Shown: positions 25,906 to 26,750 of the stretch, in pieces
How positions within the stretch are numbered: position 1 is the stretch's first letter
Layout: every line of letters begins with the position of its first letter
Assembly: GCA_036275915.1 (NCBI GenBank)
Contig: DASUCV010000022.1
Span: 62,001 to 126,000 of the forward strand
Direction: 5' to 3'
Source of the DNA: Candidatus Polarisedimenticolaceae bacterium
GTDB taxonomy: Bacteria; Acidobacteriota; Polarisedimenticolia; Polarisedimenticolales; DASRJG01
Length of the DNA stretch: 64,000 nt
The notes under the pieces: model-generated
Told to the model about the DNA's origin: nothing
Databases searched by the model: none
Seen by the model: only the letters and a program-made list of their open reading frames with translations
Position numbers and translations under genes: made by a program

Positions 25906-26430
25906 TTACTTCGCGGGGGGGATTTTGAGCGCGGCGAGCTTTGCGGCGAGATCGGTGCCCGCGGTCTTCGCGTGCACCTCGCGATCGACGGCGGCGATCT
26001 TCCCATCGGCGCCGATGTAGAACGTCCATCGGTTGGCGAGGCCCATGCCGGGGATCAGCACGCCGTAGGACTCGGCGACCTTCTTGTCGGGATCGGAGAG
26101 GATCGGATAATCGGCCTGAAGCTCTTCAGCAAACTTCTTGTTCGTCTCGGCGTCATCGACCGACGCGGTGAAGTAGACAACGTCGAACGCGCGGATGGCG
26201 GCGCCGCTCTCACGGAGCGACTTGCACTCCGCGGTTCAGCCTCCGGTGAACGCCTTCGGGAACCAGGCCAGCACGACCGTCTTCCCTTTGAGCGCGGCGA
26301 GGTCGTGCACCTTGCCGTCCGACCCCTGGAGCTTGAACGGCGGGGCCGGGTCCCCCACCTTGAGCTCGGCCGCGAGAGCGACGCCCCCGAGCCCGAAGAT
26401 CGCAAGAACGCCCGCCAAGACCTTGCGCAT
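25906..26430 (-). CDS. Periplasmic peroxiredoxin, probable selenoprotein (Sec encoded by TGA at codon 65)
   Basis: 174 residues if the in-frame TGA at 26238-26236 is read as selenocysteine. Signal peptide 1-21 (MRKVLAGVLAIFGLGGVALA). The thioredoxin-fold AhpC/TSA sequence runs on both sides of the TGA: KVGDPAPPFKLQG before, TAECKSLRESGAAIRAF, YPILSDPDKKVAESYGV and RWTFYIGADGKI after. The TGA occupies exactly the peroxidatic Cys of the family motif PxxxTxxC (Pro58, Thr62, Sec65), with a candidate resolving Cys69. A SECIS-like hairpin lies at the expected distance (26203-26221). GAGGGA precedes ATG 26430. Role: reduction of peroxides or disulfide exchange in the periplasm. The alternative, a nonsense-mutated pseudogene, is less likely because the downstream frame is intact. 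Confidence 0.85.
26203..26221 (-). promoter_or_regulatory. Candidate bacterial SECIS element in the peroxiredoxin mRNA
   Basis: On the minus strand GUCGCUC-CGUGA-GAGCGGC folds as a 7-bp stem (one U.G pair) with a five-base loop. The loop begins 22 bases after the UGA and has G at its second position. These match the established bacterial SECIS rules (loop 16-37 bases from UGA, G among the first two loop bases). An alternative overlapping hairpin at 26213-26231 is too close to the UGA. Confidence 0.65.
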
Positions 26431-26516: not shown

Positions 26517-26750
26517 TCAGGGAGCGTAGGCCAGGCAGCAGTACGAGCCGTCGGCCTGCGCCGAGCAAATGATCCCCGGGTTGTTCGGATTGCATGGTTG
26601 GCCGACCTGGGACGCACTGCACGACTTGATCCCACGCTGGCAGTGCGCGCCGCCGGGCGCGGCCTGAGTGCGGAGCGATTGGACGCCCGCCCCTGCGGCG
26701 GCGATCGCGACGGCGAGGCAGACGAGACGCAGGACTCGGTTCAACTTCAT
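26517..26750 (-). CDS. 77-residue exported Cys-rich peptide
   Basis: GGGAGGT precedes ATG 26750. Signal peptide ~1-30 (MKLNRVLRLVCLAVAIAAAGAG). The mature part has six Cys in a compact pattern (HCQRGIKSCSASQVGQPCN, GIICSAQADGSYCCLAYAP), indicating a disulfide-rich fold. I recognise no family. A TATAAC box on the minus strand at 26777-26772, 22 bases upstream, could be its -10 element. It is divergent from the 1173-residue secreted protein. Confidence 0.65.
   Translation of the reverse strand: MKLNRVLRLVCLAVAIAAAGAGVQSLRTQAAPGGAHCQRGIKSCSASQVGQPCNPNNPGIICSAQADGSYCCLAYAP

Follow-up and report, generated by a model that had tools for sequence, protein, structure and literature searches.

Does the in-frame TGA in an AhpC/TSA-type gene of a Candidatus Polarisedimenticolaceae bacterium end the protein, or is it read as selenocysteine (Sec) at the peroxidatic position? 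The gene lies within the window, by which we mean the whole stretch of 64,000 nucleotides that was analyzed. On the minus strand, a frame that opens at ATG 26430, a short way downstream of the ribosome-binding-like sequence GGAGGG, and closes at TAA 25906 is interrupted only by TGA 26238-26236 at codon 65, which sits within FPKAFTGG*TAECKSLRES and is followed by 109 residues to the TAA. When the frame was read through, it matched the Pfam families AhpC-TSA (E = 6e-31) and Redoxin (E = 4e-23) in alignments that span the TGA; the TGA occupies the peroxidatic position in PxxxTxxC. The first-pass annotation of this DNA had described a peroxiredoxin frame broken by TGA alone, at the Cys of that motif, and both the frame and the Pfam matches bear this out.

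25906..26430, minus strand: gene for a predicted peroxiredoxin selenoprotein, AhpC/TSA, PrxQ/BCP-like; 174 residues with Sec65, TAA stop.
26236..26238, minus strand: in-frame TGA, putative selenocysteine 65 at the peroxidatic position; TGA or TGC/TGT aligned in 96 homologues.

A scan of the region for promoters and terminators gave no minus-strand signal, the flanking window genes, inspected by eye, suggested no operon, and an Rfam scan of the window at the gathering threshold returned no match. Just upstream of the gene, at 26517-26750 on the minus strand, is a small Cys-rich protein of 77 aa that is predicted to be secreted.

Genes for the Sec decoding machinery, selA, selB, selC (tRNA-Sec), and selD, had been named as the ones to look for, and all four were found in the window's own genome, a draft assembly of 4.53 Mb in 24 contigs that is 98% complete. 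SelA (518 bits), SelD (361 bits), and SelB (314 bits over two stretches) each scored above their curated cut-offs, and tRNA-Sec was identified at 72.4 bits, above the Rfam cut-off, and by ARAGORN as a tRNA-SeC with anticodon tca. The selD gene (L013:1531-1533, G000 contig C11) carries its own in-frame TGA within SYAACAGUASKMGP, at what we take to be the position occupied by the active-site Cys in other SelD proteins, and a stable hairpin is predicted downstream of this TGA; judging from its sequence, this SelD is probably itself a selenoprotein. A second AhpC/TSA-fold gene (L126:1613-1615, G000 contig C4, ~615.2 kb) has an in-frame TGA in HRGTWUPNC and is likely a UxxC Prx-like selenoprotein, which would make it the third selenoprotein candidate of the genome.

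Homologues were collected by scanning one genome per species, which gave 80 loci, and by searching 60 relatives, which gave more. The resulting close set comprised 96 homologues, mostly from Acidobacteriota, Planctomycetota, and Verrucomicrobiota, plus the window sequence; seven distant PrxQ-like matches were left out. Across these 97 sequences, the codon aligned with position 65 was TGA in 47 (window included), TGC or TGT in 50, and nothing else, so that the Cys/Sec alternation the first-pass annotation proposed to look for is strict. The selA gene was present in 26 of 31 genomes with the Sec form and in 24 of 48 with the Cys form (Fisher p = 0.004). The five Sec-form genomes in which no SelA above cut-off was found are all draft MAGs or a single-cell genome, and their lack of SelA is therefore only weakly informative.

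The tree, for which the active-site stretch was omitted, requires ~14 changes of the Sec/Cys label, as compared with 35 when labels were shuffled; well-supported branches force only 4 of these changes, the other forks being poorly resolved, and the tree leaves the direction of change undecided. One strongly supported sister pair from Verrucomicrobiales (L063 and L083) consists of one Sec and one Cys form and would lend itself to comparing the two forms directly. Two more distant PrxQ-like homologues from the same phylum (L114 and L118) also have TGA at the peroxidatic codon (FPKASTPGU and YPKADTPGU, respectively), and L118 carries the classical +5 Cys.

These alignments bear on the simplest alternative, namely that the true codon is TGC and was altered by a sequencing or assembly error, or that the gene is dead, a pseudogene with a nonsense mutation. 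In any one genome, a change from TGC to TGA would be enough to give this reading, and the window comes from a draft assembly, but 46 homologues, contributed by many sequencing projects, also have TGA at this codon, which thus recurs across independent genomes. The frame is otherwise undisrupted, and the sequence past the TGA is intact and has a matching conserved hairpin. We regard the probability of such an error or pseudogene as negligible.

The hairpin itself is located as follows.

26203..26221, minus strand: putative SECIS hairpin; 7-bp stem, loop CGUGA with G second, loop start 22 nt past the UGA.

Its sequence, GUCGCUC-CGUGA-GAGCGGC (26221-26203), forms seven base pairs, including one G-U, around a 5-base loop, and is the minimum free energy (MFE) structure of its stretch (z = -2.4 to -2.8). 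The 7-bp stem and the 5-base loop with G second are as first described, but the distance of 22 bases from the UGA that had been given for the beginning of the hairpin is that of the loop; the stem starts 15 bases after the UGA. When the bacterial SECIS consensus rules were applied by script, the loop at +22 fell within the range of 16-37 nt from the UGA and G was among the first two loop bases. A longer outer stem in the window's MFE structure was considered as a conserved element and rejected, its outer pairs being mostly unpaired in Sec homologues. The window contains 1,204 TGA trinucleotides over its two strands; 2 of these are followed by a hairpin of the exact geometry and ~10% by some 7-bp SECIS-like hairpin at 16-37 bases, so the hairpin alone is weak evidence. 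Nor was its stability exceptional relative to synonymous-codon shuffles, 32% of which were equally stable, a result that is probably due to the very G+C-rich codons.

Comparison across homologues turns this weak case into what we consider, on comparative sequence evidence, a strong one for a SECIS element. With the codon register fixed, we compared the 47 Sec forms (window included) with the 50 Cys forms. All seven stem pairs were present in 35 of 47 Sec forms and 0 of 50 Cys forms, and six pairs in 10 further Sec forms, counts that are drawn from related sequences and do not represent independent events. G occupied loop position 2 in every Sec form (47/47) and in 23 of 50 Cys forms. Stem cells were paired in 95% of cases in Sec forms versus 60% in Cys forms; in control analyses, column shuffles gave a mean of 87% and a maximum of 90% in 1,000, and stems slid along the alignment gave 29-65%. 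Changes on both sides were found at four of the seven stem pairs. At the innermost pair, a CTC-to-CTG change in a Leu codon, accompanied by Glu to Asp, turns C-G into G-C; at another pair, Leu to Phe accompanied by Ser to Asn turns C-G into U-A (SLRES to SFREN; L024 and L072). Protein constraint by itself does not readily account for substitutions paired in this way. The energy of the best SECIS-like hairpin was also lower in Sec than in Cys forms (Mann-Whitney p = 1e-7); Sec forms averaged -8.6 kcal/mol versus -4.3 kcal/mol for their synonymous-codon shuffles, and Cys forms hardly differed from theirs. The proposal that the hairpin is a SECIS element thus gains from its retention with compensatory changes in Sec homologues and its degradation in Cys homologues. 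Two Cys-form homologues, L079 and L017, retain much of a SECIS-like hairpin (e.g., TCGCTCCGTGAGAGTGG in L079) and are perhaps recent Sec-to-Cys switches.

The same evidence addresses whether UGA might be decoded as another residue, either Trp by general recoding or Cys by way of a tRNA-Sec-like suppressor. There is precedent, as variants of tRNA-Sec that insert other residues occur in some bacteria. Against it, the genome encodes both SelA and SelD, which serve to produce Sec and not Cys or Trp, together with a tRNA-Sec that scores above the Rfam cut-off; homologues have Cys at the site and never Trp; and conservation of the SECIS points to SelB-dependent decoding. We consider decoding as Trp or Cys very improbable. 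Sequencing error, a pseudogene, and general recoding of TGA were accordingly rejected.

The reading that we favor, with a probability of roughly 95%, is that the gene product is an exported, PrxQ/BCP-like Sec peroxiredoxin. At the level of sequence and prediction it is supported by the in-frame TGA, the genes for the decoding machinery, the alternation of Sec and Cys, and the conserved SECIS, as well as by invariant catalytic residues and the predicted fold; the three checks originally proposed, on machinery genes, SECIS, and Cys/Sec alternation, all agree with a Sec peroxiredoxin. The features of the protein that are relevant to its function are listed here.

26371..26430, minus strand: predicted secretion signal peptide, MRKVLAGVLAIFGLGGVALA then AELK, based on sequence, hydrophobic-core score, and homologues.
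26224..26226, minus strand: Cys69 (U+4), presumed resolving cysteine; invariant in 96/96 homologues.
26029..26031, minus strand: Arg134, presumed active-site Arg of peroxiredoxins; invariant in a 50-sequence alignment.

The first 20 residues have low pLDDT and are interpreted as a signal peptide with its end at ALA|AE. An N-terminal hydrophobic stretch is present in 83 of 96 homologues, and several of the exceptions may reflect a wrong choice of start; the signal peptide noted originally is therefore predicted for most of the clade. Pro58, Thr62, position 65, Cys69, and Arg134 are invariant among 50 aligned homologues, the Pro, Thr, and Arg constituting the peroxiredoxin catalytic set. In the structure model (mean pLDDT 93.7), residues 65 and 69 lie approximately one turn apart in a single helix, 63-74. 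A Foldseek search with this model identified BCP, AhpE, and other peroxiredoxins (E of 1e-14 to 1e-16 for BCP and AhpE), and the closest sequences in the PDB are likewise BCP-type peroxiredoxins and AhpE. Scores against NCBIfam peroxiredoxin models were below cut-off throughout, including those for PrxQ/BCP: PrxU (NF040737) gave 46.1 bits against a curated cut-off of 270, and PrxQ/BCP NF006960 gave 75.5 bits against 140.

A Sec-containing protein of the thioredoxin fold need not be a peroxidase, and it could instead be a thiol:disulfide oxidoreductase or periplasmic disulfide reductase. TlpA and ResA, which are exported proteins of the AhpC/TSA fold, work in thiol-disulfide exchange; the window protein has a weak match to the ResA profile, and a peroxidase substrate is only inferred for it. 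However, its site is PxxxTxxU rather than CxxC or UxxC and, with the invariant Arg134, constitutes the peroxiredoxin signature, and the best profile and fold matches are to BCP/PrxQ and AhpE. A non-peroxidase function therefore appears unlikely.

For an exported Sec peroxiredoxin, we propose the following mechanism. SelB with Sec-tRNA(Sec) would bind the hairpin that closely follows the UGA and direct insertion of Sec at codon 65, and the signal peptide would direct export through the inner membrane. On the far side, the Sec65 selenolate, positioned by Pro58, Thr62, and Arg134, would attack H2O2 or organic hydroperoxides, and the resulting selenenic acid would be resolved by Cys69, four residues on in the same helix, to give a Sec65-Cys69 selenenylsulfide that a periplasmic thiol partner would re-reduce.

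Ordinary annotation would cut this gene at codon 64, and it provides a clean case of UGA recoding, useful for annotation, that is found again in dozens of genomes from three environmental phyla. Because about half of the homologues have Cys and the Sec/Cys label changes ~14 times, the clade lends itself well, as a natural experiment, to asking what drives the gain or loss of selenium at a peroxidatic site and what keeps a selenol reduced outside the cytoplasm. More tentatively, and with rather less than even confidence, these proteins may form a distinct, as yet undescribed subfamily of exported peroxiredoxins in three phyla, with a signal peptide and [U/C]xxxC in one helix, that would have switched repeatedly between Sec and Cys under the same fold and would use selenium outside the cytoplasm by means of a selenenylsulfide cycle between positions i and i+4 and a reductase dedicated to it in the periplasm.

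Sec peroxiredoxins as such are already known, and the window gene belongs to this family. In the consulted portions of the literature, TxxU Sec peroxiredoxins date from 2001-2005 (PMC1088965, PMC13188914), beginning with Eubacterium acidaminophilum in 2001 (ref. 83 in PMC13188914); metagenomic counts stand at 43 for the Sargasso Sea (PMC1088965) and 253 for GOS (PMC2398784), a list for bacterial genomes gives them along with Cys-to-Sec conversion events (PMC1794560), and a 2026 review treats them as an established family (PMC13188914). The earlier statement that Sec peroxiredoxins exist accordingly stands, for a recognized family (PMC1088965, PMC1794560, PMC13188914), and the claim that this one is unusual is softened. 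The portions of three of these surveys that were consulted do not mention export (PMC1088965, PMC2398784, PMC13188914), and the open-access literature, as far as it was covered, yielded no description of exported Sec peroxiredoxins or of an exported clade with the Cys at +4 in Acidobacteriota, Planctomycetota, and Verrucomicrobiota; this clade may, however, include some of the Prx sequences counted earlier in metagenomes.

Comparison with individual systems places the window protein more closely. Its nearest relatives by fold include AhpE of M. tuberculosis (Rv2238c; E ~1e-14, 33% identity), which by its entry title is a 1-Cys peroxiredoxin, whereas the window clade has a second Cys at U+4. 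To our knowledge, AhpE is not a selenoprotein, and no signal peptide directs its export. The Prx-like UxxC thiol:disulfide oxidoreductases belong to the same Pfam family (PF00578) and also contain Sec, but at a thioredoxin-like UxxC site, as described in the consulted part of PMC1088965, rather than at TxxU. With the Sec peroxiredoxin family (Prx, COG1225/PF00578, TxxU), the window protein shares the AhpC/TSA domain, predicted Sec in PxxxTxxU, a conserved active-site Arg, a downstream SECIS, and common Cys homologues, insofar as these are set out in the text consulted (PMC1088965, PMC2398784, PMC13188914); its clade differs in the predicted secretion signal and the invariant U+4 Cys. PrxQ/BCP (C. 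glutamicum PrxQ, E. coli BCP; NF006960, NF053650) is closest by profile and fold and has the same catalytic motif and a second Cys a few residues downstream of the peroxidatic position. In classical PrxQ, exemplified by the C. glutamicum enzyme, this resolving Cys is at CP+5 according to the section of PMC5811025 consulted, whereas all 96 homologues in the window clade have the Cys at +4.
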